Assembly (NCBI GenBank): GCA_022410635.1
Contig: JAJVDF010000494.1
Location: 752,191-816,190 of the forward strand
DNA from: Tretioscincus oriximinensis
Taxonomy: Eukaryota > Chordata > Lepidosauria > Squamata > Gymnophthalmidae
DNA: 64,000 nucleotides
Direction: 5' to 3'
Shown here: positions 14,061 through 35,611 of the stretch, one piece after another
Layout: the number at the start of each line of letters is the position of its first letter
How positions within the stretch are numbered: position 1 is the stretch's first letter
Translations under genes and position numbers: made by a program
The notes under the pieces: model-generated
What the model saw: only the letters and a program-made list of their open reading frames with translations
Told to the model about the DNA's origin: nothing
Databases searched by the model: none

Positions 14061-14464
14061 AATATTTTTTTTAACTTTATTTGTAACTTTAATACACAAT
14101 AGATGTCACATCAATACACAACCATATGCCATACCTTTCCCCACATTGCTCTAACTTTTGTTTGAGTGTTAAAAGTTTTTTATGGAGTGAGTTGCCACAA
14201 CCGTTTCCCTGGCCAGTTTGACTCTTCACAAGTAGGCCGTTGAGAGTAGATACTTTAAAAGCAACATTTTCGTGAAACCTGAAGTGTCTATGAAGAAAAC
14301 TGTACCTGCGATGGTTTCAAGGAGAGATGGCTGTGACGTCCTACCTTCAAACATTAAGTGACGCCACTTCTCAGTTTTCCTAGAATTGTATTCTGTGGCA
14401 GGATTGAAACCACTTCTTTAACTGTACCTTCGTGTACAATTTTAAAGAACTTATTCTACAGCAA
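14060..14464 (-). other. ZPBP-like 3' UTR with poly(A) signal
   Basis: Noncoding after the stop. AATAAA on the minus strand (plus TTTATT at 14076-14081) is the first good polyadenylation signal, giving a 3' UTR of about 400 nt. The cleavage site is inferred. Confidence 0.5.
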
Positions 14465-14855
14465 CTAGGGCAGATTGTGCTTCATTAAATTTATTAGTTT
14501 TTGCTGATAGGGTGGCAAGTTATCTGGAATTAAATTATGTTCTTTTTGTGAAGTTGGTGATAACTGTTCTTCAAAGCTAGTATCTAATTCACTAGGTCTT
14601 GTGGGCTCTGGAGATAATGTACCAGCAGGTGTGGAGTTCTCTGATGCTTCATAAGTGCTTAATAATTCCATGGATTCTTCTAGAACATCTACTTTGCTTT
14701 TTTGTATTTTGATAGGACATAATTTCATTCTTTGGGCTTGTATTTCAGCATCATTTGCAATGTTTGCAAATGCCTTCAGCCTCCTTTTAAGCTCTGATTC
14801 TGCTTCCTGGATGTACTGACCTGCTATTGTTTTTTTGAAACATTTAGTTATGATG
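14465..14855 (-). CDS. ZPBP-like exon 10: cytoplasmic tail
   Basis: Acceptor TCTCACAG before 14855; TAG at 14467-14465; 391 nt. It begins IIITKCFKKT, then a charged helix-prone stretch (YIQEAESELKRRLKAF), then a Ser/Thr/Pro/Glu-rich low-complexity part and an end LPPYQQKLINLMKHNLP. No known tail domain. The long open frame fits real coding sequence. Confidence 0.82.
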
Positions 14856-17800
14856 CTGTGAGAAAGATAGGAAAGAAAAGTAGTTTAGAAGTGATATTAC
14901 AGTTTAAGTTGTGCTCACATTTAATTTTTGACCCAGCTTCAGTTCAACTTCAGAATGCGGTGTCACTTCAGCAAAGTGACTACTTGTTTTCTTTCCACTT
15001 AACTAATGTAAAAGGTGAATTTTTAAGTTAGAAGATGTTTTATCCAAAAACTTGGGGCATGTTCATGCTTATCTGCCTTAATTTACTAGTAAAAGTAAGT
15101 AGTTTGCAGTTTGGGGTTAGCTGTAAGCAGTGGGCTTTAGTTAAAGTGTTTAGCTAAAGTCTAGCTTTGGCTGGTTGGAGAACTAAAAAAAATGATCCAA
15201 GACGATGTGCAGCCACACAAATTTGTATGGAGCAGGGAAATCCACTTTAGAAGTAGGTTACAGTCTGTCTCTGCTAAGCCAAATAAAGGAAGAAAGCCTC
15301 TGTGCTTCAGCTTGTTAACTTCCATTGCTATTGGAGGCAGATAGGACTTCTGTGTGCGCTGATAGAGAGTTACATTAGAAGCCAGTTCCAAGCATACAAA
15401 TCTGATGCATGTGCAAATGTGCTACTGCTATTGTGGATTAACCAGCGTTGCTGCACATCTAGAGCAGATTAAAGTGCTTTACCAATAATCAATTTTAAGG
15501 GCTGTTGTTGTTCTACACTTCAGTCATGTCTGATTTTCCATGACCCCATAGATCATAGCATACCAGGCCTCTCTTATCTTCCACAGCATCCCCAAACCTG
15601 GCCATGGTCATGTTGGTTACAACATATCTAATGTGTTTACCACTATGCCTGTGCAAATGATGTGGAACAGAAAGATTCCTAAAACAGGGCAAGTCTGGAA
15701 ACAGTGCCTCTGAATCAAAATTGAATTCTGGAACATAGAACAGAACCTCCAATAAATTAAAAGGCATACATCTTGATAATTACTGCAATATGATTCTTGG
15801 AAGCGGATAGAATATGCCATAATAAAATGAGCATAAGAATTCCATCTTACTACACATAACTCTCAGAACTCAAATTTCCATTTGTCACACACTGAGAGCT
15901 GATTATCAATTTCTTGCCTCTGCTTTCCACATACATGCTGGCAATCAGAGCTGGCTATTTCTGGTGAATCTGAGGAGATGTTCTTAGAAATAAGCCAGAA
16001 AGAGTGTAGTGTTTCAACATCTGGGGCGGGGGGGCACACTTTATCGACATCTACAGATTAGAGAGCTACAGAAGTTAAATTTCTTACATCCAAACTGTCA
16101 CAAAGATAAAACTGGTTGCTGCTGAGGATATTAAAAAGACCATCCACATAGGGAGAATTTCTGAAAAACAAAATAGCAACGCTGTTCATTAGGTTCTTAC
16201 ACAGATGTGCAGAGGATTATTTAGATCATGTAAGAGAAAAAAAGCATTATAAATTATAGCATTTATTTATTTTATTTGTACTTATTCCCCACCCTATACC
16301 CGAAGGTCTCAGCATGAAACATACTATTAATAAATGAAATTTCAAAATTATATATTGCGATGACTGGTCAAAAGTGGGAGTGGCTTCCCTGAGTTGCCAA
16401 TTGGGTGGTTCCAATCCGGAACCGGTTAGAAGCTGAGGAAAGGACTATAAAGGGAATGTTGGGGCTTTGCAAGGGGCTTCAGTTAGGGTGAGCTGGAGTC
16501 AGATACTTCAATTTGGGGTTAGCTGTAAGCAGTGGGCTTTAGTTAAAGTGTTTAGCTAAAGTCTAACTTTGGTCGGTTGGAGAACTAAAGTGAGCCTGAG
16601 TCTGTAAGTCAATACAAGGCTGCAGTCACACATTTTTAAAAAACCCTTCTCACAATGGGAGAATCTATGATATGTGTTGTGAAAGTTACCGTTCTCTTTT
16701 GAAATAGTTTAAATTATTTGGGGGTTTATTCACTGGGTCATATTTCAGATTATATTGTGGAGTAAGAAGCAGCCATCCCACACCAGAGAACATAAGAGAA
16801 GCTCTGCTGGATCAAGTCCAATCCAACAAGTGCATCTCAAGGAGAAGGCAAAACCTTTGCCTGCTTGACTCCCTAAACAAATGGCTTTCAGAGGAACCCA
16901 CCCTGTTATACCAACTGGAGGCAATACTAAGGCATCCACTTTGATACACTTGGTCTCTTATATGCCAGTGAAAATTATAGCAGACCTTGCAAAAGTCTAC
17001 CAACCAGGACTGGATTTAGGCTGTATTTTGCCCATTGGCTTTAATTTACTAACTTATTTACTTACTTACTTATTTTACTTCCCCTCTTCCCTCAGCTATT
17101 TTGGGTTTTATAATAATCATAGCAATAAAAAATATTGATACCTTCTTAGTACTACCAGTATCTATATTTTGCCTAAATACATTCCTGGTACCAACATACA
17201 ATTGGCAGGCTGCTATTCCTGGTGTTATCTAATTTAAGGTCAGATGTTTGGTTTAAATTTAAATTGTCTTAAGAAAGTTTATTCTGTTACTTTTAGTCTA
17301 TGAAATCCTTGTTAAACAACTATTAGCCGGTTTTTTATTTAAAATACAAAACTGTGAGGGAAACATTTCTGTAGGTATAAACCTATATGCTTTTGACTCA
17401 TCTGTTGATTATAAGTAATCACTTTATATACATTTCCTAACCTTAACTTGTATTTTGTCTTTTTCATAAACAAATAAACAAACGGAAAGTCTTATTTTTA
17501 TGATAGTACAATTCATAATACCAGAAAACATCATCGTGAATAATATAACTTTATCTCTGATAAGCCTGTCACACAGCACAGGGTAGTAATGAAGGAGGTA
17601 AATCAGTAAAATTTATGTCAAAACACACCCTGCAGCCTTACCATACACAGCCACGCATTTGAAAATATAGTGATCTTCACTTTACTGATTTATATGGGCA
17701 AAGGACTGTTCTAATTGCTGCTCTAACCTCCTGCTTCAACTGCATGAATATATGAATAGATAACGAAGGGATTGTAATAAAATATCTGGTTTTCACTTGT

Positions 17801-20800
17801 CGTATTTGCAGCTGCTACACTCTACACCCTCTCATTTGAAGTGAAAATCCTTTCCTATTGTTAATCTGTATTTCAGGTGTGCAGAATATGACTCAGTTAT
17901 TATGAAGATAGTTAAATTTAGACAGTATTTATTCTTGGGTAATCCAGAGGTACCAATGGATCAGGAAATGGGAATATCTTTTGAAAAAAAACCATGTTCA
18001 TCTGACTGAATCCAACCTAATCTGAGATGTCTACAGTCAAGTATAATTTTGAAAATGCAGAAATACAGTTTCTAATTGTATGTCCATTTGGTTGGGGTGT
18101 TGATAGTTAGAAAAGCATACAGGTGTGTGGAATAAATTGCATATACAGGGTGCTTCAAAAAAATGTATACGCACTGTGAACTTCCATAGAAAATTTATTT
18201 ACTGTTCTACTGTTCTACAAAGTTAAATTTCAGGAAATTAGAAAGCTTAAAGTCCAATGTAAATAAAACGTAAATAACAAATGAGTACGAGTCACCACTG
18301 ATTGTGTACATTGTATGGAAGTTCAAAGTGTGTATACATTTTTTGAAGCACCCTGTAGAATATTTGGTGGTTGTTTCTATGTACCATGTGTATGTCTGTT
18401 AATAATGTGGTTATACAAAATACAAAAGGTTATTTTTATCACAGTTATCATGGGGATACTTTTAACAAATTCCTTCTGTTTAGATTTTCTTTCTATTATT
18501 TTACACTTAGAGATTACACAGTACAGTGAAGCACTAGCAGCAGGAGGAGAGGGATGAGGAGGGATGGCCAATGTATGGTTAACGGGGATGGCCAATGATT
18601 GGACTGGCCTTGGGTCCACTAGAAGCCAAATGTCTTTCCATTCTCAGCAGCCTCTTCATACCATTGTCCAAAATCAGGGAACCGTCAAAGAGCCGGGAAG
18701 AACAAGCTGGAAACAGCTCACTTCCTATAATGATGTTCTCTGATGGGAGGATTAATGCTGAATGACAGGATTAGAAGCTTGCCAGCTAACCCCCTCTGGA
18801 TTTCCCACCACTAGGAAGTTTCTACCATCTGCCCTGTCCCCAAAACACCCAGTTATACTATGGAGCATCCTGATTTATGAACTAGTCCTGAGATGAGATA
18901 ACATGAGCAGTATTCTTCAGCCTTTACCCAGATTCTTTTGGGGGAATTCCCTGAAATCCCATGTGGCTCTCAGTCCAGCTCAATACCAATCTGTTTTCCA
19001 TTCAGATTAAACAAAAAGGAGTGAGGACAGCATATGTTGTTTACCCCATTTTAATTGAAATGTTAGACTATTCCAGGATATAATTCAGAATAATGCCCAG
19101 TGCAGGGCTTTAACTGTTTTAAACACCATTAAATTTGTGCAGCCTGCCTTGAAATAAAAGAAAATTAAGACAAATCCAAAATAGTTATTTATCAAATCTT
19201 TCTATCCACATGATGTATCTCACTTGTGCATGTGCCGAGTAGAATTCCAGGAGTAAACGCAGAAAATGAAAATCCAAAATTGATTTCATCTCCTGGCATC
19301 CTCTAAATTTCAGTTTAGCAAAATGGAAGTATNTTGGCCATGATAATATACTGCATATCTGCTTTGTAAATACTAAATGGATTACTAATGGAATATTTAT
19401 TAGTTATAAATAGTAATGGATTATTAATGGAATGAAATGAGAACTGTTATGTGTGTGAAAACTAAGTGCGATGTATATAAATGTAGTAATAACTTACTAT
19501 GACACTTTTTTANTGTCTTTGCACCTGGTTCATCACTGCTCTGTGCTTTTGGACAGTTTTTACATGCTGCTTGTCCATATTTTTCATTGTAAGATCCAGC
19601 AGGACAAAGAATGCAGATGGTCCCATATTGTGCACTGTATCTGCCTGGCGGACATGTTACTATTCAAAAGTAAGCAAAAGAGCATAGGTTTAATTAGTAC
19701 AGTCTTCCATCATTAGCTATTACTTTTACTAGCTTTTGTTTATACATAGAAGGCAGTAGTTGTTACCTTGAGGGTTAGACAAAGTCTTATCTTGCCTAAA
19801 AGGAAAGCCTCAGACCTACGTTGCATAACCTTCTTCATGTGGCCAATAATGGCAGTTTGAAGGTTTGACAATCCCAGAACTAGAAAATAGCATACAGTGT
19901 TGTGGTATAAGAGGAATTGCCTTGCAATGTGCTATGATTTTTGCTGAATTCTCTTTGAATTAGAAAATGCAGCAGAGAAGGCAACAGGGTTCAGATCCTT
20001 GAATCTAGAGACCGGCTAGGGATGGCACCGATGAGAATACTGGTTTCATAAAGGTGTGATCATGTGGTTCTCTGCCACAATTGCCCCATCTGCAGATGTG
20101 TAAAAATGTGTCACATCATTTCCAAAATAAGTGCCTAAAATGATTATCTCACTGCTCTTCAATGCCACCGACTGATTGTCCATCTGTTGGGTTACAGTGG
20201 CCTTCATTGGTCAACCATCTCTAAGATCCATTTCTAGGTTATGATTATCCACAAGAACTTCTGTAGCTTCTCATTTAATTTGACCTCCAAAATAAGTCAC
20301 CTTTGGAATGATTATTACCATATGGAAAAAGCACACTTTCAGAGGCTTCAAGATGCAGCAAGTTATTTTGGGTAACTTATACCTGATCTTTGGACCTCAC
20401 ATTTTCTATGGTTAAATTTTCTTTAACCATGTTGCACCCATGGTTAATCACAAGGCAACACATTTTAATTCAGTCCCTTAGCTTCAACACAAGACCTGGC
20501 AGTTTGAAGTGATACTTCAGGACCTCACTTTCTGATCAACTGCAGTAATACAAGCATATAAAGACTTCTAGAATCCCTGGGGGTGGGAGAAAGTACTTCA
20601 TCGTCATTGCTCTACTCTACACATCCATCTGAGAAACTAATGCACTTGGATTACTGAAGGTCTTGGAGGTGAGAAGCAAATATGCTTTTGGCTGCAAAGA
20701 CATCTTCCATTCACACACTTCTATGATCTGGAACCTATTCTGCAGCATCTAGAAAACATGTTTAGCTGACAAACACGTCACCATCTACTCTTGGAACAAT

Positions 20801-23800
20801 GGGAAATATAGTGCAACCTTCCAGTTTTTTACTGAATTAAAATTAATTACCTTCCCATTCATAACATTTTAGCATTATACTATATTTTTCATCTATACAG
20901 ACTTTTTTATTCCGTTCAAAATCATCCAGTTTGCAAGGTGTGTGTGTAGGGAGATAATCAAATCAAGAGTAGATTTGGATTGATTCCGATTACGCCACTA
21001 AATTTCAGTTCATGCATATTGTGGCCCAATTGGTGTATGTGACTCCAAAAGCCTAAACTGAAGCAGTTTAAATAGCACATCACCAGGGGATCAGTAGCAG
21101 GGAAGCAGGAGCAGGAGTGAAGACAAGAAGGAGGAGAGATCAGGATCACTATTGCCAACAGGGGCGGCAATACTTGGGACAGCCCAGAGCTCACTAGAAA
21201 CCAATGGGAGGGGGGTTATTGACTAGCATGTTTATCCTGCTTTAATGTTAATGTTTCTTGAAAGTCCCTGAGCAACTCTGGTGATGAAGCAGTTAATACA
21301 AATGAAAGAAAGTAAAAAGGAGGGACCCAGTACTCTTTAACAACATTGAAATAATATCAGTAAGAAATTTAGTTTTCTGCAATAGGATTTTCTTCTGTTG
21401 ACCTGATTTATCTCTGTTAAGAGACTAGTTAACAAGTTGACAATAACTTTTTCTAAAAAAATAAGTAATACCTAAAATGTAAATAGTTTATACCATTTTA
21501 CATAGCTTCTCATTAAATTGTGTCAGGAATCACCATTAAATGTGTTTTGGCCTGTGAGGTTCTTTTATTCAATCCTGTTGTATTGCATCATAGCTCAGCT
21601 TTCAACTGCCTCTGGGATTTTTATCTAAGTTTTAATCATTTGATGGTAAAAGTGTTAATACAAATACTAACATAACAAATTAAAAAATTGTTTGGGAACT
21701 CACCACAACAACCTGGGCATCTCATGCTATTGTTATTAGNGTCCAGGTTTTTCCCAAATCCTGGTTTGCAGTGATCTATTTTAACACCATTAAAAGTACC
21801 ACGTATATATCTCAATTGATCACTTTGAGAGGTGTCTGCAGTTTGGCCTTGAAAGAAGTGTTTGATTTTTACATATGCCTAGAAATGTAACAATCAACAG
21901 AAGCATTGAAATGGACTAAATAATATTAGGCAAAATGATGGTAGAAGCATTATAAACAGTAGATCAGGAAAATAAGGTAAGTACAACAAAACAAGTTTTT
22001 AATTTGTTTATTCACATAACTTTGAAAATCTAGCCAGACATTGGTCTGGATCAGAGATTACATATTAATGCAAGCAAACTAGAATAATTGCCTCTGCTAC
22101 TGACATGTCTCCACAAAGCAAAGCCAAAAGTATGCTCTGGGGGAGAGAAGGTATGGATTGTTTAAAACATTTTATTTATATGTGTTGTTGTTGTTGTTGT
22201 TGTTGTGAAGGGCAGGATATAAATCACTTTAAATAAATAAGTAAAAAATTTCCCAGTGACTTTTTCTTACAGTGTTTTAATTTATTTGTCTTGCCTTTGT
22301 ATTCCTTTCACAAAAATTAGGTGTAAACAAATAACATTCCCAATAAAATGCAGACTTGATAAAATGCTTCTGTGACAGATAGGTCACTTCAGATGACCAT
22401 CCACATCCTTCTGGTTTATTTTTCAACTTTCCAGTCTAGCTTACTTTACCTGGAATTTCCAGGTGAATTTCCAAGTGATTGCCCATTCAAAACAGCCATC
22501 GCCTCAAGACCTTTGAACAGTCTCCCAGTGAAGATATGCCAGGCACCAATATTGTATGGTTTTTTTTTTAGCATCTGTTTGAACTCTAGGCTTGTGATTG
22601 TAAGTTTCTTCTGCATGCCTTACCAGTGAGGCAGGTAAGTGATATTTTTGGTATGTTTTATAGATTTGATGTTTTCATTGTTGTAATCTTCATTTGAGGG
22701 ACAAGCTATAAATTCCTGAATGAATGGTCTGATTTTGCAAGTGTGTATGGATATAAATTTAGATGTAGCTAGAGATGCATATCTACACACACACACACTC
22801 ATGTAATCACATGTAATCGAGATAAATCCCATACTTTTGAATGAAATTTCAGAATAATTTAATATTACCGTTTTTACATCACTTGTAGAATTTTCACATT
22901 GAGAGCTTCTGCAAAGTTCTATTCTAGTGGGAGCTGAAGTGAATACTGCAAATTAAGAAAAAGTTACATAGTATATATTTTTAATTCACTTTCTCTGAAA
23001 ATACTGAACATTAATGAAGTTCAAATGCTTTTTCATTTCAGAAACTTCCAGCACTATTCATACGGTATCTACATCACCTGTATTTTATGGTCTTGATTTG
23101 AATGTTACTACAAACAAGTACACACCACTAAAACAACTTATTAATTACCTCAGTTATTATGCAGCCCCTTGATAAATCAGGAAGAAACCATCATTAAGCA
23201 TAATTAGAAGGGTTCAGATGTAATATTTATTTACATCATGTCCATGGACATAATGGCAAGTCACAATAAAATAAATTCCAAGCAGTTCCCAAAGGTTCTG
23301 TGGGCGCCCCTGGTTCTTTACATGGCCCCTGCTATGCAGCCCCACTCCTTAATTCCATCTGGGAGTGCGCAGTTTGGGATAAGAGGTGTGTGTGTGTTTG
23401 CCAACTGATAGCTACGACCCATTGGCTATGGCTTCTCCCCGTTGCCTGGTGGCGATTGGTAGGACTGAGCGGATGGTCCAGCTGATCTTTCCCCTCTGAG
23501 CTTAAAGAAGGCTGGGGCATGGGGGAAACCTTTACCGAAATTCTAGTCCTTAAGAGGAGGGAATTGGCAACCCCTGAATAGTTTTTGTGTCATCCTTAGG
23601 ATGACCAAATCCTGAGACTGATGGCCTGCTGGTGGTCACATATAAGAAGGCAGGAGATGCTTCCATATTGAGAAATGATAGAGGAATGGGAGGAGCTATC
23701 TACCAATGGAGTATGTAAATTTATTTTGAAAGGTGAAATCTCTGTTGCTTCTAGCTTGGAACCTGCAGTAATAACCCATAGTTAAGGCAGTCATCTTTAG

Positions 23801-25826
23801 ATATCTGTGGCCCAAGTTATTTATGGCCTTGTTAACGTTTAACATCTTGAATTGGACATAGTAGCAGATTGGCATCCAGTGCAGCTCTTTTAAGACCAGC
23901 CAGTCATTTCGGTCAGCAGTCTAGCTGCTGTATTCTGTACCAACCGCAGCTTCCGAACCATTTTCAAGGGCAGCCCCATGTTGAGTGCATTACAATAGTC
24001 CATTCTGGAAGTTGTCAGAGTATGAATTATTGTGCCCAGATCATCCCTGTCCAGAAGTGGCTGTAACTAGAAGTGGCACGACCTACTTTTCAAGTGTCAG
24101 TGCAGAGTCTAGAAGCACTCCCAGATTTTGCACCCATCCATTATAGGGCAGTTTTACCCCATCAAGGATAAGATGCCTCCCCACTTCACGAACTCAGGGT
24201 GCTCCAACACACAGCACCTCCATCTTGTCTGTATTCAGCTTCAGTTTATTGGCCTTCATGAGGCCCATCACTGCTTCTAGGCACTTTGATCACCTGTCTT
24301 GATCAGATGGAACAGAGAGATAGAGCTGAGTGTCATCTGCCTATTAACATAAGAACATAAGAAGAGCCACAGCCCATCAAGTCCAGCATTCTTTTTCGCA
24401 CAGAGGCCCACCAGATGCACCTGGCAGTCCGAACAGAGGAAACCAAAATATGCTCCTGTTCATGACTCCCTGCAAATGGTATTTCAGGAGTCCTGCCTGT
24501 TGCTCCATCCCAGAGGCAACATCCAGACATCCATCCTAGGATCCATTTATACCCTTGGTGTCCATAAACCTGTCTAGTCCTGTCTTGAAACTATCCAAGC
24601 TGTTAGCTATCACTTCCTCTTCAGGAAGTAAATTCCACAGGCCAATGACCCTCTGGGTGAAAAAATACTTTCCTTTGTCTGTTCTCACTTTCCTACCCAA
24701 CAGTTTTAAGGAGTGACCCCTGGTCCTTGGTCCCCTGGAGATAGAGAAAACATTTTTTCTCTATTCACCCTGTCAACCCCATGCATGATTTTGTACACTT
24801 CAATCAGATCACCTCTCTATTGATGGCACTTCATTCCAAATCTCTTTATGGCCTCCCCCAGTGGTTTCATATAAATGTTAAACAGCATGGGAGAGTGGAT
24901 TTACCCCTGAGGAACCCCACAAGTGAGCTCCCAGGGTGTCAAGCAAGATTACTCCATCACCACTCTCTGGAAGTGACCTTAGAGATATGGAGCGGAACCA
25001 CTGCAATGCAGTGTCACAGACTTTGCCATCCAATATCTGCTCCTTTATCCAAGCATGAAAAAAGCAGCAAGGGATCTCTCAATGTCTCCTCAGGCATCAC
25101 TCATTTACAGTACCTCTGCTTTACAATGTGTCTAGCACAAAAAACTGGGGAAGAAGAAATATAATGAAATTTCTTTTCATCTTTAGCCTTCATAATCATC
25201 ATAATACTAACCCAGCACATGCCCTCTAAAATATGCTATATTCTCTTTACGGTTTAGCTCAGTTTTATGCACTTAAATTCTCAGTATTTTCTTTTATGAA
25301 AGATTCAAAAATTAAATTTAAGTAGGAAGTTACCTGCAAAATGGAAGATAATTGTATGAGTTATCTTTTCCAGTGTATCTGTCGAAGCATGGCACTGTGC
25401 ATTCCATTGCCTGATTTCACATCCCACATCATGGACTAAACTTCCCAGTTGCTCTAAAAGATATTTTTCAAATGAAGCAACAGTTTTGGTTGCACAGGTC
25501 CCAACTGCGAATTGAGCTGACAGATGTATACTCTTCCCTGGCATGTGATACACTAATTGAAATTAAAAGGAAAATGTTGTCTCTTAACATTTTGTGCTAA
25601 TGATCTAAAGCTAATATTTTGGGACCATAAAATGCCACAGTGATTTTACACCTGCTCATCTGTGATTTCTCTTTAAACCAAAAACAGTCCTCTTAATTTA
25701 GAAATTTTTCACATTAACACTCAAGATATATATAATATACTATAGATATATATACTATATATATCTATATCTATATTTGTATCTATCTATCTATCATCTA
25801 TCTATCTATCTATCTATCTATCCATT

Positions 25827-25861
<35 letters not shown>

Positions 25862-25887
25862 CTATATTATCTATCTATCTATCCATT

Positions 25888-25918
<31 letters not shown>

Positions 25919-28900
25919 CTATATTATCTATCTATCTATCTATCATCTATCTATCTATCTATCTATCTATCTATATCTATATCTATATCTATATCTATCT
26001 ATCTATCTATCTATCTATCGATAGATAGATAGATAGATAGATAGATATAGATATAGATATAGATATAGATATAGATATAGATATAGATATAGATCTATCT
26101 ATCTATATATAGATATATAGATATATAGATATAGATATATTATCTATCGATCGATCGATCGATCGATCGGTCAATCGATAGATAGATAGATAGATATACT
26201 GTATATATACTCAAGATGTATAATGCCAGATTATACATGGTCCATTTTTCTCAACATTTTTTCACATACAAGTTCCTTGCCATAGTACTTTGGCTACAAT
26301 CATACCTTTACTTTAGACCATCTCCACACCCAAAGAATGGTGTTTAATCCAGAAAAAAAAGAAAGGGGTTAAGCCCCAGTGAGAGTGACTGAAGATTAAC
26401 TGAAAGATGGTCATGGCCCTGAATTTCTACTGCATATCCAGGCCCCACATGGGCAGTCATAAACATGTTTAATTTATGTTTATATGTGGCATGCAATAAA
26501 TGTAATAATACTATTTGTATTCGTCAAACACAATGCATACATATTGGCAACAGTACGTGAACCCCATCAAGTATAAACCCATTGCTAAACTAAGATCCGT
26601 TGAAGAAACAATTATTTCACCCTCCCTGTTTTGCCAAACTAAGAAGTCATCTTACGAAACATCTTGCTGCACTTGCCTTACTAGAATCCTCTGGAATGAG
26701 AAACTACCAAAAATGCTTCTCACAAGCCTCACTTCTGCCTTCAAAAACAACTTAGACGGTGCTTGTTTCGGGGAACCAGTTTGGTGTAGTGGTTAGAGTG
26801 TTGGGTTCTTATCTGGTAGTCTCCCGGTTCGATTCCTCATTCCTCCATTAAGCCAGATGGATGACCTTGAACAAGTCATAGTTCTTTAGAACTCTCTCAG
26901 CCCCACCTACTTCACAGAGTGTCTGTTGTGAAGAAAGCAACAATATATGTCCCACCCTGAGATCTTTGGGTATAAATAAATAAAAAATAAATTTAAAGCC
27001 TAAGATCACATGTTAGGCTGCAGACATATTGCCCCTTAAAGCGCGTACGACTGTGAAGCNAAAGTCCATTGTTTCAACTGTGTTACCATAAAAACAGTCT
27101 TGAAAGTGCTGCAGTATCACTCTGAACACACATCACAGGTTTCTGCTCCGCAGTTTGTGGTGGAATTGTGTCGTCGCTGCTTCTTTATGTAATTTGCGCC
27201 ACTTGCACACTGACAATGGGGGATCAGGCAACAAAAAGCGAGCAAGACACCGGGGGCTGGGGGCATTGTTTGGCATTCCCTCCAGGCTCAGTAGCTTTTT
27301 TCCCAGCTGCTGCAGCACTGTGAAAGAGAATCATTGAGCACTCTCAGCTCACAGCTCAGGGAATGCTCAGGTAAAATTAAGCCCTCAGTTCACTTTCATT
27401 TTGGAACAATAAAATCCCTTTTCCATTCCCTTTTAAAGTTCTAATGGGAATGCAGCCTTAGTGTGGCTGAAAGTCCACAATGATAAAATGCTCGTGGTTC
27501 CAATGCAAATGTATACCATTTCCACTTTGGATTAAGCAAAAGAAATGCCAACTCAGTGGGAACTAAAACCTTTTTGATAAAAGTCATGTGGGAACAGCTC
27601 CTTACAGCCCAAGTCTTACTTCATGAGAGTTTTTTAATGGCTTTGCACAACAGTATCTAAGTATTTTACCATTTTAATAGTACAACAAAAATATGAAAAC
27701 TTTACATACCATAGACCATATATTGGACTTTTGTAGACAGCTTTTTATTTTTATGAATGTAGCTCACTTTGCAAGTATAATGCCCAGAATCACTGCCTTC
27801 AACATTATGGATCTCCAGGCTGCCATCATCCGTGAGAACCAATCTATGAGATTCTATGAATAAAAAGCCAACACATTACTATTTTCATCGCAATTTAAAT
27901 AAACAATTTAAAGCATTTTCCACACTGAATCTTTTTCTGAATTACGTCTCAAAATATAGATTATTTACATACCAGTGCAGCCCCCATGCTTCATTTTAAT
28001 CAACTGTAAACAGACTTTTCCAGATTTAGAAACAGGCAAAACACATCTACTGAAAGCCGTTGCATTCAGGCAACACTATATGGAAAAGGCTGTGCTGTAT
28101 TTTCTATTCCCTGACCTCCACTACTCCCTGATTTCCAGTTGTCAGTTCTTTGTGATAAAACTAAATCCAACCAAAATATTTTGCAGATTCAAATTGAACT
28201 CTTAAACAAAAATACAAACCAACCAATCAATTTGCTACACTCTAGAATAGTGAATGATATCCTGTATGAAGACGAGTATTATAGCCATTAAACTTCAGCG
28301 AGCAGGAAAACATTTGTGTAATCCCATACAGTACACTTAATATGTCCTAGTCAGTTTATACATCCTTAGCAAGAGAGAACACATCAGCAAAGTGATAAAC
28401 AGTTTTCCTTCCACATCATTCAACACAGAAAATCTATATTTGAGATAGATAATGGGAAAAGTATCTTTGTTGTTCTCTCACTTTGAAGGTGAACTGAAAG
28501 GAATCGAAAACAAGTCAGCAAATGCTGTTTTGCCTCTTTATAAATCTGTGGTGAGGCCACATTTGGAATACTGTGTTCAGTTCTGGTCACCACATCTCAA
28601 GAGGGATATTTTGGAACTGGAGAAGGTGCAGAAAAGGGCAACAAAAATGATCAAGGGTCTGGAGCACCTCCCTTACGAAGNNAGGCTGCAACNTNTGGGC
28701 CTCTTCANCCTNGAAAGGNGANNTTTGAGNNGTGATNTGATTGAAGTGTACAAAATCATGCATGGGATAGACAGGGTGAATAGAGAAAAAATGTTTTCTC
28801 TCTCCCACAACACTAGGACCAGAGGGCACTCCTTAAAACTGTTGGGTAGAAAAGTGAGAACAGACAAAGGAAAGTATTTTTTCACCCAGAGAGTCATCGG

Positions 28901-31900
28901 CCTGTGGAATTTACTTCCTGAAGAGGTAGTGGTAGCTAACAGCTTGGATAGCTTCAAGACAGGACTAGACAGGTTTATGGACACCAAGGGTATAAATGGA
29001 TACTAGGATGGATGTCTGGATGTTGCCTCCAGGATGAAGCAACAGGCAGGACTCCTGAGATACCATTTGCAGGGAATCATGAACAGGAGCATATTTTGCT
29101 TTCCTCTGTTCAGACTACCCAGGTGCATCTGGTGGGCCTCTGTGTGAGAGAATGCTGGACTTGATGGGCTGTGGCCTGATCAAGTATGGCTCTTCTTATG
29201 TTCTTATGAAGATGGAATAAAACTTGGTACTTGGGATGCAATGCTTTCTGAACACAGGCCTAGAATGCAGGTATACTAACTGATCCATAGCTNGTATCAA
29301 CCATACTACCATAGTGTAATGTATAGTAATCAGATGAGGTACTTACAGTTATAAAAAAAATCATATTACTAAAACTCATTTAAAATTGTGCCTAGAACCA
29401 TCTGAACTAATCAAAGCTGTATATTCATGTGTCAGAATTTAATGTTTCCAAAACTTGGGAACACACAATACCCACAGTTCAAATTTGCTATCAACTGTCC
29501 AAAGGACTGAAATGTTTATTCACAGTAGTTACAGTGAAAATGACTGTTACCTTTTGTTATCTGCCCTAGAGGACCAGTCCAGTGGTATTTGGGATCCATG
29601 ATTCTTTGCATCAACATCTTGTCAGTCAAACAGTTCAAAATCAAATTGTTTGAATAAATAAGAGCAAATACTGGAACTACAAAAAGAGAAAATAATATTA
29701 TATAAGAACTAAAAATACAGGGAATTTAACAACAAGAATATTTCCTGAAGTCTTCACTTTGGGTGCGTGCACACAGCTATTTTCATCGGCGCGAGATGAA
29801 TGAGGTTCTGGCACACGTGTTAAGCGTCTCTCAGCTGTCATCCCGCAATAAATGCCGTTTATCTCAGAATAAACTATTGCTGGGATATTCAGGCATCTTT
29901 CCTGTGAACCGCCATCTTCTCACGGCCAACCTCCGTCTTTTCACGGCCATCCCCCGAGCTTAGGCGTGTGCACAAAAGGCACGAGAGGTTAAAACGAGGG
30001 TTCAGCAGTAGCTGTCAAAACAGACTGCACTGCACTGACAGGCTGCATCCACAGGGAGCCAATCTGTTCCTTGGAATAAGAGCCTGCCTACCACATGCTA
30101 GTGTAGACTATGGCAGGTCCAATGGGTTGGCAGGCTCCTCTAAGGAGCTGCTGAATTGGGAAATTCTGCCAAAGCAAGAGGAGGTAGAGGCAGTATTACT
30201 GGCCCCATCCACATGGAGCCTAGTTCTGGGTAACATTTTGGGACATTGGTCATCCACATGCCAGTTGGTTATCATGGTAGTTTACCTGCAACATTATGCA
30301 GAGGAGTCCGTAATACCCCATTATATTTTAGGTAATTCCCTCATTTAATTTTTCTGCCATGTTTTGAAATGTAGTTGAACATTATTGAGGGGGTATTGGA
30401 GATGATAAGGAAACAGAAAAATATTGCAACTGTTTCCATCTGCATATATTGCAACTGGAGATATTTCGTCATGTCTTTTTACCTTGCATTCATACATTTT
30501 ATTAAGCTTCTGCCAGTTTGTTCTTTGCAATGAATCACAGTCCTCACCTTTTGTATTGTAAACTTTTTCTGATTTGTCTTTTTTTAAAATGTGGTTTCTG
30601 GCATGTATCTGAGATATGGAAGAATTCCTTTTTATTAGCTGTGCAGGTTATGCTGCCACACTTGTATGGATAGAAATGTCTTACATGGCCAAAATAGAAT
30701 ACAAAATTGTAAGTACCTAAAAATCCTACTGGGAAATTGTAAGAGAATTTACTGACATTTTATTTTATTTATTTATTTATTTATTTGTACTTGTATCCCG
30801 CCCTATACCTGAAGGTCTCAGGGAGGCCAACCATAGGGCGGTGCACATAGCTTTTGTTGCTTTCTCCACAACAGACACCCTGTGGAGTAGGTGGAGCTGA
30901 GAGAGTTCAAAGAACTGCGACTGGCCCAAGGTCATCCAGCTGGCTTTCATGGAGGAGTGAGGAATTTGAACACATAATTCCCTTCTATGAAATACTCAAA
31001 GCAAACAACATAGGAAGCTCAACACTTCCTATGTTGCCTACCAACACTTAAGTGTCATCCACACATGTAGCAGCCCTAGTGCCATTAAGATTGCAGACTT
31101 GTTCATGGTCTGAACGCCTATAAATAGCTTCAATTTGTTTAGATGCGCTTACTTCTGTAAACATCGTTCTCAGCATGTGCATTCACAGTTCTAGGATCAA
31201 ATATTAAGAAAGATGTGCACAAACATCTTTGTTATGCCAAGCTGACAACAATTTGGCATGGACTGCATAACGAATCAGCAAATACAGGATTGCAATGGAA
31301 AGTACTGTGGTCTCATCATAATGGCGAACAAAATCCTGTCTCCGTATAGCTTGAAGAACTGCTGAGAATGGAGAATGATGGTAGCAGGTAAATGTTACCC
31401 TGGTTAAGTGTTTATTTGGCCTTCGTCTTCCTTTTGTTTTTATAGAAGATCAGACTTGCAAGATATCAGACCTTGCAAACCTGACCCGCTAATGCAGCGG
31501 TTCTCCAACCTGTGGGTTGTGACCCCGGCAGGAGTCAAACAACCAAAACACAGGGGTCACCTAAAGCCATATTTCTGATGGCTTTAGCCGCTGAACCGGG
31601 GAGGACACATTATTTTATTTATTGGAATTAGTAATAAATATTTATCAACATATAATTGAATATTGTTTTTGTGATTAATCACTATGTTTAAATTATGTTT
31701 GATTTGTAGCAATGAGAATACATAATGCATATCAGGTATTTACATTCCGAATCATAAATGTAGCAAAATTACAGTTTTGAAGTAGCCACGCAACATGAGG
31801 AACTGTATTGCGGGGTCAGGGCATTAGAAAGGTTGAGAACCACTGCACTAGGGTTGCCATATTCTGGCAACCCAAAACCGGGACGGGGTGGGGTGGGGCG

Positions 31901-34900
31901 CGCGCATGCGCACATACGGACGCTTGTAGCGAGATAGGCAAAACCTCTTCTGCCTGTCTCACCACAAGCGTCCGTGCACGCCTACCTGTTCCTTGGCTGG
32001 AAGTGGGGTTTTGCCCTGCTCTCGCCGCCAACTTGCCTGCAGCAGCGGAGCAAAAACACTTGGGTTTGTGAGAGGAGAACAGAGCTGCCCTCCTGTCAGA
32101 AACCCAGGCGTTTCTCCTCTGCTAGAGGCGAGTTGGCAGCGAGAGCAGGGCAAAAAACCCCTCCAGCAAAGGAGCAGCTACTCGGCACGCTCTGAGGGTG
32201 TTTCCTGGACCCCGGAAAGCGCTGCCGGGCTGCAGCTGTCAGCTCTGACGGCTGCTTTTCCTTTAAAATCCCGCCTTTTTACATTCCCTGATGCAGCATC
32301 GGGGAATGTAAAAAGCTGGGATTTTGCCTTAAAACCCGGAGGGGACTATATTTTAGTCCCCCAAACTGGGATTGTCCCGGTTTATCGGGACGTATGGCAA
32401 CCCTACACTGCGCTAATGGGTTTACGTTCTTGCAAAGAGCATAATGAACTCATTCATGCAAAACCAAGCCCATATTTTGGATGTGTGATGCCCCTGTGCA
32501 GTAATGTATTTTACATCCCTTCTTCCCTCAGCTAAACTTCAGCATACAGTTCTGAACAATTCTTAATCTCAAATGGACACTTCTCACGCTTTCAGTAGGC
32601 TGTGACCAAGTGGGTGCAAGCCAAGGCACTTTGGGTGATTCAGTATAGGTGGTGCCATCTCAAGGAGAAGTGGTGTACTAATAGTACATCCATACTATTT
32701 TAATGCCAGAACATTCGTCTACTCCAGGTTTTATAATGGTAAAAGCAATTTAAAAATTAATTATCTTTTTACTATTAACTATATTTTGCTGCCCTCAAAA
32801 TCTTGCCACCCTGTGCAGCTGCTCATGCTGCCTATGCCTAAATACGTTCCTAGGTAGAAATTGATGCACATGTAGAGTACAACAGCACACACATGAACCA
32901 CTCCAGGAAATCAGCAAGTTAAAAGGGACAGTTCAATTACCAGTTGCTTCTTCTGTTCCAACTATTTGATGAGTTATTGGCTGAGGTTCTGAGATAGTAT
33001 CATACTGAGTCTCATGGTCTAGGGATAGCTCTCCATTATTTTCTTCCAAGTGAACTGTCCTTTTTTGTAAATTGCACATACCATTAATAAAACATGGATT
33101 TCCAGCTAGAGTAACACATTAAAAAGAATTACAATTTGAAAAACAAAATGAAATGCCAGGGAGCATTTACTGTGGCAGCAGATAGCTATTCAACTCTGAA
33201 TCCCTTTCAAAACAGTATTGCTCTACATGTGAAATTTGCAAATGGATTTTATTTCAATTTTCTAACTCTACCAAATGAAGATGGGCTGACCTCTATGATA
33301 CTCCAGTGGGCTGACTTGACATATAGACCTTTCCACATTGTGCTTTGTTCTGGGCTATATCACAGAGACTTGTCATCCACATGCTAGGGTAGACTATGGC
33401 AGGCTCCATTGAGGGTCATTCATGTCTACTAAGATATTTCCTGAGAAATGAATTTCACAAAATTAAATCAATTTGGAATTGTGATGAGGAATCCAATATG
33501 GAATTTTTCTCTTTAGTAACATAGAAGAAGACATTACTTACATTGGAAACTCCAACTGCTGAAACCTCATTTTCTGTAGAGCTATTGCAACTCCTTTTTG
33601 GACTGAGGACAGATTTTAACCCATCTTCAGTCCTGAAGAAGCCAACTAAACCAGAGTGAAAGGGTTTGTTTTTGTTTTGTTTAGCCCAGTTCTTCTGGTT
33701 TATATTGCATCAGGCCTATGTGCATTATGGTGATCCAAATCTAGGGCTCTATCACCTTTCATTGCTCTGGGTGAAAACAATAACCTAGCAGATGCTGTTC
33801 TTTGGCCCTTTCTGCACTGAATCTTATTTTGGTCTATATTTCAGAATGGGAGCCTGCCATATCTTACACTGGCATGTGGACTGCAGACCCCTGTTCCAAA
33901 ATACAGCCCAGAATAAGCTCAGTGCAGACACTGGCATGTGGATGGCAGTCTCTATTTCAAGATATTGTCCAGAATATGTTTTAGTGCATGAAAGGTCTCA
34001 CTTTGCCACATTCTAGTTTTCCTAAATTTAAAATATTTCATCTAATAGCTTCCAATCTTTCAGGAACCAGAGCAAAAAGAAGCACAGTGATATTCACACT
34101 TGTTTTAATCCAGCTTCTGTTCCCTTTCAAAGTGGTACGAGCAAAGCAACCAGTCATTTTCATTCTATATTATTTAACCCAGAGGGTTTTCTAATGAGTG
34201 TCCTCACTAAAGTTGGATTAAATGCTAGGTTTAATGCAAAGAGGTGATAGATGAACTGACAGTTTGTGACATTTCCCATGACAGCTGTATCCAGCTATGC
34301 TTAAGTAACTGAAGAAAGACTGCAGACACACTCGGGCTAAAAACGGATGCGATAGTGGGCTCACTGTTCTCTGGACACATTTGGTTACCAAACAAACAAC
34401 TGCAGGGTGCTCCCAAGTCCCTCAGTATGCACAACTCCTGTTTCTGATACGGAGCTTTTGGTCAAAACCCAATGCCACTGCTGTTTCTCGCCATTCGCGT
34501 TAATTTTACTCCAGCTACAGAATTCCCATACAGAATTCTCCTTTGTGCGGGTGCTTCCGTTTCAGATTCGTGCTGATCTGTGATCTTGGTGAAAGGGGAT
34601 GTTTCCAGACTGGGTTGCTGTGCACATAATATTTTCTTCCAGTTCTTCCTAACCCCCATTAAAGTAACATCTGGGCAAAGGTCCTTTCGGACAGCACAAC
34701 ATTCCAACCTTGATCTCATTATTTTTATTTGTAGCTAGAACATAACACACTGTGCACAGTAACTCTACTGCCTGCACTTCTGTCCTAATCTCCAGTGAGA
34801 CCATGCTGGAGACTCCATTCCCAGCCACAGCAGCAGCAGCCGCTATGACCTCCCTCCCTTCCTCCTTCTTTCAGGACTGACAATGAGAAAGGAAACCACA

Positions 34901-35611
34901 CAGCTTGGGTTGAGTCTTGAATTGTCCTCTCCACCCCCTTCCTAAGCAGAGAAAAGGGTTTCTTCCTAGCCTTTCTCTGATCAGGGAGAGGGCGGAGTAG
35001 CAGCTTCAAAACCCTGAGCCCAGCCAGGTTACTTCCCATCTTTCAAGGAGGGAAGGGAGGAAATGGGAACGGGGATAGAGGGAGGAGTTACGTAGCAGCT
35101 GCAGATGGAGCAACTATGGACAGAAGATAGGAGGGAGTTAAGGGGATCCAGTTGCCACCATGTGTTCTGTGGGGATGTTGAAACAGGACTGGAAATGGAT
35201 GCGGGATTTGGCGTTCATTTCAAATTGGCTTTGAAGATTTCCAAAGCGCTTTCGCATTTGTTTTTAGCCCTAGTGCATCTGCAGACAAAGAGTTATTAGG
35301 ATGAAAATCCACTTTGTTAAACCTCTTACATTTTAAGTTCCCCTGAGGACTTAAGGAGGAGAGGAGGACAATGAAGAAGCACCTGCTATTAAAGATGGAA
35401 CATAATCATGACAAACTTGAGGAACTTTATGATGAGGAAAGGGTTCATGAACTGAATAACAAAACACATTAAAACCACTCACACTTTCACTTATTTTTCA
35501 TTACTTACAAGTGGCCTCTGAGAAAAGAATGACCAGTAACAGCAATGCAAGTGTGAGTAGAAGCTCTAAGCTGCAAAGCTGACCTTGAGAAGAGGTTGTT
35601 TTCACTGCCAT
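14465..35611 (-). CDS. ZPBP/Sp38-like single-pass membrane protein, 10 coding exons
   Basis: Minus-strand exons: 35611-35509, 33105-32941, 29676-29551, 27853-27710, 25552-25334, 22945-22869, 21878-21704, 19659-19498, 16160-16088, 14855-14465. All have GT-AG borders and matching phases; total 1635 nt, 544 residues, no internal stop. Predicted order: signal peptide 1-34; unique linker 35-89; Ig domain about 90-178 (Cys105, Trp122, DSGHYTC with Cys159); Sp38-like domain about 180-336 ending CKPGFGKN...CPGCC; GCC2/GCC3-like cysteine repeats 337-390; transmembrane helix about 392-418; cytoplasmic tail about 419-544. The Ig plus Sp38 order and the CCV-C-PG motif match ZPBP1/ZPBP2, acrosomal proteins in sperm-egg binding. 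Unlike them, this protein has a membrane anchor and tail. Sperm function is inferred from family only. The start has a good Kozak context (ACCATGG). Confidence 0.85.
15108..15186 (+). repeat. Partial copy of the 16.5-kb LTR-like repeat
   Basis: About 78 bp almost identical to 16509-16588 (TTTGGGGTTAGCTGTAAGCA... to GGTTGGAGAACTAAA). Confidence 0.7.
15505..15612. mobile_element. BovB-like LINE fragment
   Basis: CAGTCATGTCTGATTTTCCA, TGACCCCATAGATCATAGCA and ACCAGGCCTCTC follow the well-known BovB-related string (gtcgtgtccgac...gaccccatggactgtagc...accaggct). BovB is abundant in squamates. Confidence 0.6.
16088..16160 (-). CDS. ZPBP-like exon 9: transmembrane helix
   Basis: Acceptor TTTTTCAG, donor GGAT|GTAAGA; 73 nt. 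It encodes ILPMWMVFLISSAATSFIFV and then TVW; the helix continues III across the splice into exon 10 and stops at TKCFKK. One uncharged run of more than 20 residues with positive charge on the inner side indicates a type I orientation. Confidence 0.8.
16258..16328 (-). mobile_element. Sauria-type SINE 3' fragment
   Basis: TTTATTTATTTTATTTGTAC...CCCTATACCCGAAGGTCTCAG is the tail end of the SINE seen in longer form at 53.6 kb, reverse orientation. Confidence 0.65.
16360..16620 (+). repeat. LTR-like remnant
   Basis: A TATA-like box (GACTATAAAGGG) near 16444, about 80 bp of downstream sequence shared with 15108-15186, and a terminal CAGTCACACA. No coding part or primer-binding site is seen, so an LTR origin is a guess. 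Confidence 0.3.
16789..16925 (-). mobile_element. CR1 3' fragment, decayed
   Basis: GAGAACATAAGAGAAGCTCTGCTGGATCAAGTC... resembles the CR1 3' end of the intact copies. Confidence 0.55.
17005..17187 (+). mobile_element. hAT MITE (CAGGxxxGGATTTAGG ends), copy A
   Basis: Ends CAGGACTGGATTTAGG / CTAAATACATTCCTG, with 8-bp flanks CTACCAAC (16997-17004) and GTACCAAC (17188-17195), 7/8 matching. The interior matches 49926-50152 in reverse. Confidence 0.75.
18146..18355 (+). mobile_element. Mariner-like MITE, complete
   Basis: Terminal inverted repeats CAGGGTGCTTCAAAAAAATG / CATTTTTTGAAGCACCCTG extend for tens of bases (GAACTTCCAT... at both ends), flanked by TA on both sides. 210 bp, no coding capacity. 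Confidence 0.85.
19498..19659 (-). CDS. ZPBP-like exon 8: GCC2/GCC3-like cysteine repeats
   Basis: Acceptor TTTTGAATAG, donor CATA|GTAAGT; 162 nt with one N. It encodes VTCPPGRYSAQYGTICILCP, then AGSYNEKYGQAACKNCPKAQ. The CPPGxYS...C..CPAGSY...C..CP spacing is that of ephrin-receptor-like GCC2/GCC3 modules. ZPBP proteins have a shorter cysteine-rich end at this position. Confidence 0.85.
19730..21703. other. Intron 7 of ZPBP-like gene: no recognised element
   Basis: Read on both strands; nothing supported beyond AT-rich intron sequence. Confidence 0.4.
21704..21878 (-). CDS. ZPBP-like exon 7: Sp38 domain core
   Basis: Acceptor TTTCTAG, donor TGTTGTG|GTGAGT; 175 nt with one N at codon 325. 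It encodes HFFQGQ, then HCKPGFGKN and SMRCPGCC. The C-(K/R)-PGFGKN followed by a CxxCC cluster is the most diagnostic ZPBP-like signature in the gene. Confidence 0.87.
22182..22250. repeat. (GTT)n microsatellite with SINE tail
   Basis: About eight GTT units at 22182-22206, followed by GAAGGGCAGGATATAAATCACTTTAAATAAATAAG, a SINE-like 3' end. Confidence 0.75.
22869..22945 (-). CDS. ZPBP-like exon 6: Sp38 domain, part 2
   Basis: Acceptor TTTGCAG, donor ACG|GTAATA; 77 nt. It encodes VFTSAPTRIELCRSSQCENS and continues to phase 0. Two cysteines and an N-glycosylation sequon (Asn271-Ser-Thr) are visible. Short, but framed by good splice sites and phase-matched to both neighbours. Confidence 0.78.
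23690..24344 (-). mobile_element. L2-type LINE, 3' part of reverse transcriptase
   Basis: The minus strand starts with ADDTQLYLSVPSDQD, then MGLMKANKLKLNTDKMEVL and LLDSALT, typical of the L2 reverse transcriptase after its active site. Broken by stops. The upstream half resumes at 24816 beyond a CR1 insertion. Confidence 0.8.
24345..24815 (-). mobile_element. CR1 inserted in L2
   Basis: Starts with the octamer tail AACATAAGAACATAAGAAG (TTCTTATG repeats on the minus strand) and ends in ...TGTACACTTCAATCAGATCA. About 470 bp, with the same end as the 36-kb and 39.3-kb copies. Flanks share CTATT. Confidence 0.85.
24816..25125 (-). mobile_element. L2-type LINE, 5' part of interrupted reverse transcriptase
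   Basis: The minus strand reads a decayed CG(V)PQG motif, then LLFNIYMKPLGEAIKR-like sequence with stops, up to the CR1 border. It continues into 24344 downward at the ADD motif. Confidence 0.7.
25334..25552 (-). CDS. ZPBP-like exon 5: Sp38 domain, part 1
   Basis: Acceptor TCAATTAG, donor GCAG|GTAACT; 219 nt. It encodes VYHMPGKSIHLSAQFAVGTC, a helical stretch (FEKYLLEQLGSLVHDVGCE), then NAQCHA and ITHTIIFHF. The cysteine layout resembles the region after the Ig domain in ZPBP. Confidence 0.83.
25728..26208. repeat. TCTA/TAGA array with strand switches
   Basis: 481 bp of TCTA, TAGA, TATC, ATAG and TCGA units in alternating blocks, so most of the array can pair with itself. The 9-bp direct repeat ACTCAAGAT borders both sides (25719-25727, 26209-26217). 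It lies in intron 4 of the ZPBP-like gene. Confidence 0.95.
26769..26996 (+). mobile_element. Sauria-type SINE
   Basis: GGGAACCAGTTTGGTGTAGT and GGTTAGAGTG (A box), CCGGTTCGATTCC (B box), then the body and an AATAAATAAAAAATAAA tail. This tRNA-derived family is squamate-specific. Confidence 0.88.
27016..27457. mobile_element. Harbinger-like MITE candidate
   Basis: Short inverted ends GGCTGCA / TGCAGCC and 3-bp flanks TTA on both sides (27013-27015, 27458-27460), as in PIF/Harbinger. The interior has no match I recognise. Confidence 0.45.
27710..27853 (-). CDS. ZPBP-like exon 4: second half of Ig domain
   Basis: Acceptor TTCATAG, donor TATG|GTATGT; 144 nt. It encodes RLVLTDDGSLEIHNVEGSDS and then GHYTCKVSY, the classic D-x-G-x-Y-x-C Ig motif. 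It leads into the VQYMVY strand before the Sp38 part. Confidence 0.88.
28465..29212 (+). mobile_element. CR1 LINE, 3' part of ORF2
   Basis: Reads ANAVLPLYKSVVRPHLEYCV, QFWSPHLKRDILELEKVQKR, then LLGRKVRTDKGKYFFTQRVI and GLWNLLPEEVVVANSLDSFK, a CR1 ORF2 C-terminus with Ns around 28681-28740. It ends with the TTCTTATGTTCTTATG octamer tail. It lies in ZPBP-like intron 3. Confidence 0.93.
29551..29676 (-). CDS. ZPBP-like exon 3: first half of Ig domain
   Basis: Acceptor TTTTTGTAG, donor AAAG|GTAACA; 126 nt. It encodes VPVFALIYSNNLILNCLTDK, then a turn and KYHWTGPLG. NCLTDK holds the B-strand cysteine and HWTGP the core tryptophan of an Ig fold, both in ZPBP-like spacing. Confidence 0.85.
29762..29975 (+). 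repeat. Interspersed repeat, copy of 38.46-kb element head
   Basis: GTGCGTGCACACAGCTATTTTC...GTTCTGGCACACGTGTTAAGCG...AATAAACTATTGCTGGGATA is near-identical to 38460-38610. It ends ...GGCGTGTGCAC, an inverted copy of its start, so it is a small DNA-transposon-like unit. Confidence 0.7.
30025..30265. repeat. Fold-back MITE fragments
   Basis: CACATGCTAGTGTAGACTAT, GGCAGG and, further on, GGCCCCATCCACATGGAGCC and CATCCACATGCCAG are arm sequences of the palindromic family complete at 45654-45832. Confidence 0.65.
30755..30985 (-). mobile_element. Sauria-type SINE, reverse
   Basis: Starts ATTTATTTATTTATTTGTAC, then ATCCCGCCCTATACC and GAAGGTCTCAGGGAGGCCAACC; the body matches 53.63-53.87 kb. The promoter end is truncated. 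Confidence 0.8.
31495..31845 (+). mobile_element. Charlie-like hAT element (outer)
   Basis: Ends CAGCGGTTCTCCAACCTGTG / AGGTTGAGAACCACTG, the standard Charlie-type hAT ends. The left target-site copy is CGCTAATG (31487-31494). The right copy is displaced to 32411-32418 by a second insertion. Confidence 0.88.
31849..32405 (+). mobile_element. Non-autonomous hAT element, family TAGGGTTGCC, copy 1 (nested)
   Basis: Ends TAGGGTTGCCAT / TATGGCAACCCTA, with 8-bp flanks CACTGCAC (31841-31848) and CACTGCGC (32406-32413). GC-rich 557-bp interior with CpG-rich GCGCGCGCATGCGC. Copies 2 and 3 are at 57112 and 58557. Confidence 0.9.
32941..33105 (-). CDS. ZPBP-like exon 2: N-terminal linker
   Basis: Acceptor ACTCTAG before 33105, donor G|GTAATT after 32941; 165 nt. 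It reads SGNPCFINGMCNLQKR and then a Glu/Asp/Thr/Gln-rich stretch of about 35 residues. No known domain recognised. The two cysteines near the start may pair. The exon bridges signal peptide and Ig domain in phase. Confidence 0.75.
33315..33415. repeat. Fold-back MITE arm fragment
   Basis: CACATTGTGCTTTGTTCTGG, CATCCACATGCTAGGGTAGA and CTATGGCAGGC: one arm of the palindromic family. Confidence 0.6.
33797..33995. repeat. Fold-back MITE copy, decayed
   Basis: GGCCCTTTCTGCACTGAATC near 33804, paired later by GCATGTGGATGGCAGTC...CAGAATATGTTTTAGTGCA. It belongs to the family at 45654. Confidence 0.6.
34450..35300. other. GC-richer block in ZPBP-like intron 1
   Basis: Two minus-strand open frames (34719-34462, 85 codons; 35039-34785, 84 codons). 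The first reads LECCAVRKDLCPDV and NWKKILCAQQP, unlike any repeat here. No splice phase joins them to exon 1 or 2. It could be a promoter or alternative 5' exon, an old retrocopy, or chance. Confidence 0.3.
35509..35611 (-). CDS. ZPBP-like exon 1: signal peptide
   Basis: ATG at 35611 in ACCATGG context, donor T|GTAAGT at 35508. It encodes MAVKTTSSQGQ followed by a leucine-rich core (LELLLTLALLLLVILF), a clear secretion signal. It ends with one base of a split serine codon completed by exon 2. Confidence 0.82.

Follow-up and report, generated by a model that had tools for sequence, protein, structure and literature searches.

Within the window, the 64,000-nucleotide stretch of Tretioscincus oriximinensis DNA analysed here, splicing of ten exons on the minus strand between positions 14465 and 35611 yielded one open frame of 1635 nt, corresponding to 544 codons plus the stop. 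The start codon at 35611 lies in a good context (AAACCATGG), the stop codon ends at 14465, AATAAA signals are present downstream of it, and all nine introns (9/9) are of the GT-AG type. Two residues are unread, since exon 7 and exon 8 each contain one N base. The ten exons, their in-phase frame and their start and stop agreed throughout with the initial annotation of this DNA. The features of the gene are as follows.

35509..35611, minus strand: exon 1, hydrophobic signal region with the start codon (splicing; hydropathy 2.77 at residue 12)
32941..33105, minus strand: exon 2, N-terminal linker, fast-evolving (splicing; 18-46% identity to seven relatives)
29551..29676, minus strand: exon 3, first half of the Sp38 Ig domain (splicing, Pfam; 126 nt, as in the lizard's own ZPBP1 and ZPBP2)
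27710..27853, minus strand: exon 4, second half of the Sp38 Ig domain (splicing, Pfam)
25334..25552, minus strand: exon 5, first half of the middle domain (splicing; 219 nt, as in the lizard's own ZPBP1 and ZPBP2)
22869..22945, minus strand: exon 6, middle domain (splicing; 77 nt, equal to the lizard's own ZPBP1)
21704..21878, minus strand: exon 7, end of the middle domain and CKPGFGKN...CPGCC core, where EGF_Sp38_C starts (splicing, Pfam; one N)
19498..19659, minus strand: exon 8, remainder of EGF_Sp38_C and ephrin-receptor-like cysteine module (splicing, Pfam; one N)
16088..16160, minus strand: exon 9, the greater part of the transmembrane helix (splicing, hydropathy)
14465..14855, minus strand: exon 10, remaining part of the transmembrane helix, then the cytosolic tail with the stop codon (splicing, relatives, hydropathy)
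14660..14677, minus strand: acidic dileucine signal ESMELL in the tail, residues 475-480 (motif count across tails)
14076..14081, minus strand: candidate poly(A) signal AATAAA (sequence)

Exons 4 and 5 are separated by an intron that contains a long imperfect GATA/ATCT simple-repeat array (25726-26196). A pseudogene reading was rejected, because the frame is open in the window and related database models keep it.

The placement of the gene between RECK and GLIPR2, as claimed initially, was borne out by matches to solved protein chains. On the plus strand, a RECK exon at 183-488 matched the solved RECK chain (E 1.6e-30), and a probable second RECK exon at 4985-5272 gave a sub-threshold Kazal match only. 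GLIPR2 exons lie at about 49177-60531, also on the plus strand; the last of them (60352-60528), searched with the window's own DNA as the query, matched the solved GAPR-1 chain (E 1.4e-26), and one further GLIPR2 exon search used a human sequence as bait. A local duplicate array was rejected, since only one copy of the gene is present in the 64-kb window. Open frames that resemble pieces of LINE-type reverse transcriptase, as read from the frames, occur at 738-2343 (plus strand), 39784-40518 (minus strand) and 62605-63999 (minus strand).

Pfam profile analysis placed the encoded protein in the Sp38 family, both Sp38 models scoring above their curated cut-offs: the Sp38 Ig domain (PF07354) at residues 92-181 (53.6 bits against a cut-off of 23.1, E 2.3e-14) and EGF_Sp38_C (PF20626) at residues 315-369 (32 bits against a cut-off of 24, E 1.3e-7). 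An ephrin-receptor-like cysteine module (PF07699) was also found above its curated cut-off at residues 342-389 (E 9.3e-9). Hydropathy readings, as opposed to a trained predictor, place a hydrophobic region at the N-terminus (from residue 12) and a single transmembrane-like stretch that starts at residue 399; the ectodomain lies between the two, and a tail of about 125 residues comes after the second. The colinear core of the family aligned over 110 listed database rows, and 13 cysteines were invariant across a turtle row of the same type and human ZPBP1 and ZPBP2 sequences not drawn from a database record. Taken together, the sequence gives good support to a predicted type I membrane protein, a third paralogue of the Sp38 family with an ephrin-like extension and a cytosolic tail.

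The 1.54-Gb genome of the same animal was searched with the Sp38 profile. Four matches were obtained, two on contig C39 and two on contig C708, and the exons of the window gene (contig C494) were not among the matches of this search at E ≤ 0.001. That the Sp38 model finds the ZPBP1 and ZPBP2 exons but not those of the window gene may explain the patchy annotation of the third branch. Splicing by hand identified the C39 locus as ZPBP2, with eight exons that code for 348 residues (one of them unread), and the C708 locus as the core of ZPBP1 in six exons. ZPBP1 and ZPBP2 are held to be neighbours of Ikaros-family genes, as the initial annotation also states; in this genome, no Ikaros zinc finger was seen in 70 kb around the lizard's own ZPBP1 or in 60 kb around its own ZPBP2.

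The three genes have a common exon skeleton. Exon-end phases are 1,1,1,1,1,0,1 in the lizard's ZPBP2 and 1,1,1,1,1,0,1,1,2 in the window gene, and the five introns found in its ZPBP1 agree with these; all three genes have an exon 3 of 126 nt and an exon 5 of 219 nt, and ZPBP1 and the window gene also have the 77-nt exon in common. ZPBP2 (alias ZPBPL) has the Sp38 Ig domain, the middle domain, EGF_Sp38_C and the first seven intron phases in common with the window gene, and the two proteins are 28% identical over 301 alignment columns, but ZPBP2 ends at exon 8 after the EGF module, without the ephrin-like extension, the transmembrane helix or the tail. ZPBP1 (Sp38), with the same core and 29% identity over 272 columns, likewise has a last exon, the counterpart of window exon 8, that stops after the EGF module. 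Exon 8 of the window gene is longer than its ZPBP1 and ZPBP2 counterparts, and is spliced on to the membrane exon and then to the tail exon. Both comparison genes lie on contigs other than that of the window.

Database searches identified relatives of the same, third type in at least 29 named species: 18 squamates, seven turtles, three ratites and one monotreme, the platypus. This count was drawn from the rows listed in the protein searches, which include fragments and mixed models (Varanus), and one species name is incomplete. The best annotated relative was 62% identical across 94% of the window protein. The first two protein searches, which scored about 8000 candidates each, yielded 32 rows, all of squamate, turtle or emu origin, and both missed platypus, rhea and ostrich. 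Third-type members from these three species were added by a third search, for which human ZPBP2, the core of human ZPBP1 and a turtle row served as queries, among the best 120 of its 331 matches; genuine ZPBP2 sequences from numerous reptiles, birds and mammals were also among the matches listed. Within the same best 120 of 331 matches, PF07699 was present in nine of the ten third-type rows and in none of the 110 others. The database names of the third-type proteins are mostly ZPBP1-like, ZPBP2-like or uncharacterised. The initial description of the gene as uncharacterised needs correction in so far as public databases already contain related proteins, under misleading "-like" names. One entry named ZPBP1, P0032 from Varanus, appears to be a mixed model in which the third-type part comes after a long unrelated-looking stretch.

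Phylogenetic analysis of 28 rows, all taken from databases or from this genome and rooted by midpoint only, separated a third-type clade (100/100) from ZPBP1 (100/100, two rows) and from ZPBP2 (100/99), and an earlier tree that contained one row of other origin gave the same result. The window gene falls within the third-type clade, together with platypus, ratites, turtle and squamates, while the lizard's own ZPBP2 groups with that of the tegu Salvator (100/99), which would point to a teiid-like host. A relocated ZPBP1 or ZPBP2 was rejected as the identity of the gene, because the lizard has both of these genes elsewhere and the tree places the window gene apart from them. The echidna sequence falls inside the ZPBP2 clade, and the presence of platypus in the one clade and echidna in the other indicates that the third type and ZPBP2 split before the amniote ancestor. 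The suggestion first made from the window alone, that the ZPBP/Sp38 family has a third branch and that this branch is membrane-bound, was upheld by the Pfam matches, the tree, the gene structure and the conserved transmembrane segment and tail described below, although the branch is not specific to reptiles, since platypus and ratites have members.

Hydropathy analysis identified a transmembrane-like stretch (above 1.6, in the second half of the protein) in 31 of 36 third-type rows, one of which, P0029, is a fragment with a misplaced match rather than an anchor. The rows without the stretch were P0013, P0025, P0027, P0030 and P0032; four of them are short (291-353 residues), and P0013, which is 474 residues long, counts against the anchor unless its model is wrong. 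An N-terminal hydrophobic stretch above 1.6 was seen in only 14 of the 36 rows (0.97 in the platypus row), and several of the models are without exon 1. In the ZPBP1/2-type proteins, a membrane-like stretch was seen in four of the 110 listed rows, all of them isoform models. The juxtamembrane block was 41-78% identical to that of the window protein in seven relatives.

After P0020, whose tail is truncated, and P0029 were dropped from the 31 rows, 29 complete tails remained, from 22 named species and the window. Exactly one [DE]xxxL[LI] motif was present in every one of these tails (29/29), always in the form ESxxLL, as compared with 19% of shuffled tails; the rows are related and several are models of one gene, so the tails are not independent. 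The platypus tail is only 29-36% identical to seven others and yet keeps the motif, as EESVGLLS. Both the membrane segment and the whole tail were thus seen in 22 of the at least 29 named third-type species. The existence of the gene, its family membership, the predicted membrane anchor and the probable age of the branch are well supported by these sequence comparisons.

Structure prediction from the third-type rows alone was poor (mean pLDDT 42.9), and prediction for a turtle relative with 110 rows reached a mean pLDDT of 65.5, with low values in the tail and values of 71-96 in 27 of the 29 ten-residue blocks covering residues 81-370. The middle domain of this model, with the DSSP order beta-alpha-beta-beta-alpha-beta, would suit a ferredoxin-like or SEA-like fold. 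The best 50 of 1867 Foldseek matches to the turtle-relative model were mainly Ig chains, and thyroglobulin (rank 18) and a dystrophin-complex chain (rank 26) were among the matches listed, both over longer stretches. The 50 listed VIA fold rows were almost wholly confined to residues 82-180. Sequence comparison and fold comparison both indicated that the Ig domain also matches general adhesion and receptor Ig domains.

The function of such a protein may be considered in the light of what has been described for mammalian spermatids. Signals of the type [DE]XXXL[LI] are read by the adaptors AP-1, AP-2 and AP-3, according to PMC4114066. In PMC10483240, the acrosome is termed lysosome-related and AP-1 is proposed to act as adaptor on pro-acrosomal vesicles; AP-1, AP-2 and AP-3 all bind inceptor (ELAPOR1) in testis, and ZPBP1 is among the most reduced proteins in the inceptor knockout. 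Loss of ZPBP1 leads to failed compaction and fragmentation of the acrosome (PMC6759486), and IAM38, a protein on acrosomal membranes, is equated with ZPBP2 in PMC3429778 and with ZPBP1 in the review PMC7827414. A further protein that resembles the third type by description is SPACA1, which sits in the acrosomal membrane, fastens the acrosome to the nucleus (PMC6759486) and is reduced in Zpbp knockout mice (PMC10483240).

The explanation that we prefer, and consider somewhat better than an even proposition, is that the gene encodes a third Sp38 paralogue that is sorted by AP adaptors to the acrosomal membrane, where it serves as a ZPBP tether of the matrix or as a contact with the egg coat. The gene would be expressed in spermatids, and the ESxxLL signal in the tail would be read by AP-1 or AP-3 for transport from the trans-Golgi to the acrosome. 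The ectodomain would then face the acrosome lumen beside the soluble matrix of ZPBP1 and ZPBP2, and may hold this matrix to the acrosomal membrane while compaction proceeds. Protein that stays behind on the inner acrosomal membrane once exocytosis has taken place might serve as an anchored adhesion molecule towards the egg coat. From family and tail motif we infer testis expression and an acrosomal location, and by analogy a role in sperm is likely; the mammals in which ZPBP function has been studied may lack the third-type gene, so that this role is carried over from distant paralogues.

The dileucine signal also fits lysosomal or endocytic receptors of any tissue, and other readings were weighed. 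It is rather unlikely, but worth considering, that the protein is a spermatid sorting receptor comparable to inceptor. Its ectodomain would then bind ZPBP1/2 or proacrosin in the trans-Golgi, and the dileucine signal would load it into AP-coated carriers that deliver this cargo to the acrosome; at the egg it would have no part to play. Inceptor is a membrane protein with a related cysteine-rich stretch, and in mouse it binds AP adaptors and has a role in acrosome formation; its binding in testis and the strong reduction of ZPBP1 in its knockout (PMC10483240) are in keeping with such a function, as is the single conserved AP-type signal in the third-type tails. Residues 263-387, which are cysteine-rich, matched ELAPOR1 at E 1.2e-4 to 1.3e-4. 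This was the best stretch, however, and similarity along the whole chain was not seen: the match spans only about 120 of the 990-1006 residues of the ELAPOR1 chains and sits in a cysteine repeat for which thyroglobulin is the better match. In addition, the signal named for inceptor is YXX-theta, not dileucine (PMC10483240), and a binding partner for the window protein is a proposal only.

A somatic adhesion or scavenger receptor at the cell surface, which has an ectodomain of Ig and EGF-like parts, has abandoned the sperm role and undergoes uptake and recycling driven by the dileucine signal, seems doubtful to us. The fold rows listed for the Ig domain came for the most part from Igs of neural and immune adhesion molecules or receptors, and AP-2 too reads dileucine signals (PMC4114066), but both Sp38-specific domains and the exon skeleton of the family have been retained. 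It is highly improbable that the 3' part of the gene model is wrong, with exons 9 and 10 taken from another gene and the protein being a secreted ZPBP. The splice from exon 8 to exon 9 is computed in the window, and 5/36 third-type rows are without the membrane stretch; squamate, turtle, ratite and platypus models nevertheless continue in frame into the same transmembrane segment and tail, and the conservation of the juxtamembrane block also led to rejection of a tail from another gene.

If the preferred reading of an acrosomal-membrane ZPBP is extended to the history of the family, it can be conjectured, with little confidence, that the amniote ancestor had three ZPBPs, of which the third type was the AP-sorted anchor of the ZPBP1/2 coat on the inner acrosomal membrane, and that the lineages that lost it, perhaps therians, anchored the coat otherwise, for example by placental ZPBP2 isoforms with a hydrophobic C-terminus.

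A third ZPBP gene is apparently undescribed. No description of one was found among the open-licence PubMed Central papers searched, nor were the names "zona pellucida-binding protein 1-like" and "2-like"; the near-names in use in the passages retrieved were ZPBPL, which stands for ZPBP2, and "ZPBP-like", which occurs in the title of a cited work of 2003 on a human gene. The main text of a python sperm-gene paper does not mention ZPBP. In mammals ZPBPs sit on acrosomal membranes (PMC3429778 and PMC7827414), yet the lizard's own ZPBP1 and ZPBP2 are anchorless, and a paralogue bearing an anchor and a sorting signal makes the tethering of the coat and the delivery of ZPBPs to the acrosome testable in lizards, turtles, ostrich and platypus. 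The misleading names "ZPBP1-like" and "ZPBP2-like" can also be corrected, since the proteins that bear them form a separate clade.

The four isoform models with a membrane-like stretch (P0096, P0100, P0091 and P0133) are models of placental ZPBP2, from two cats, hippopotamus and sloth, in which the EGF exon has given way to a hydrophobic stretch, itself conserved, followed by a short tail. P0096 represents 158 sequences, and if these models are real, some mammals make a membrane-anchored ZPBP2.
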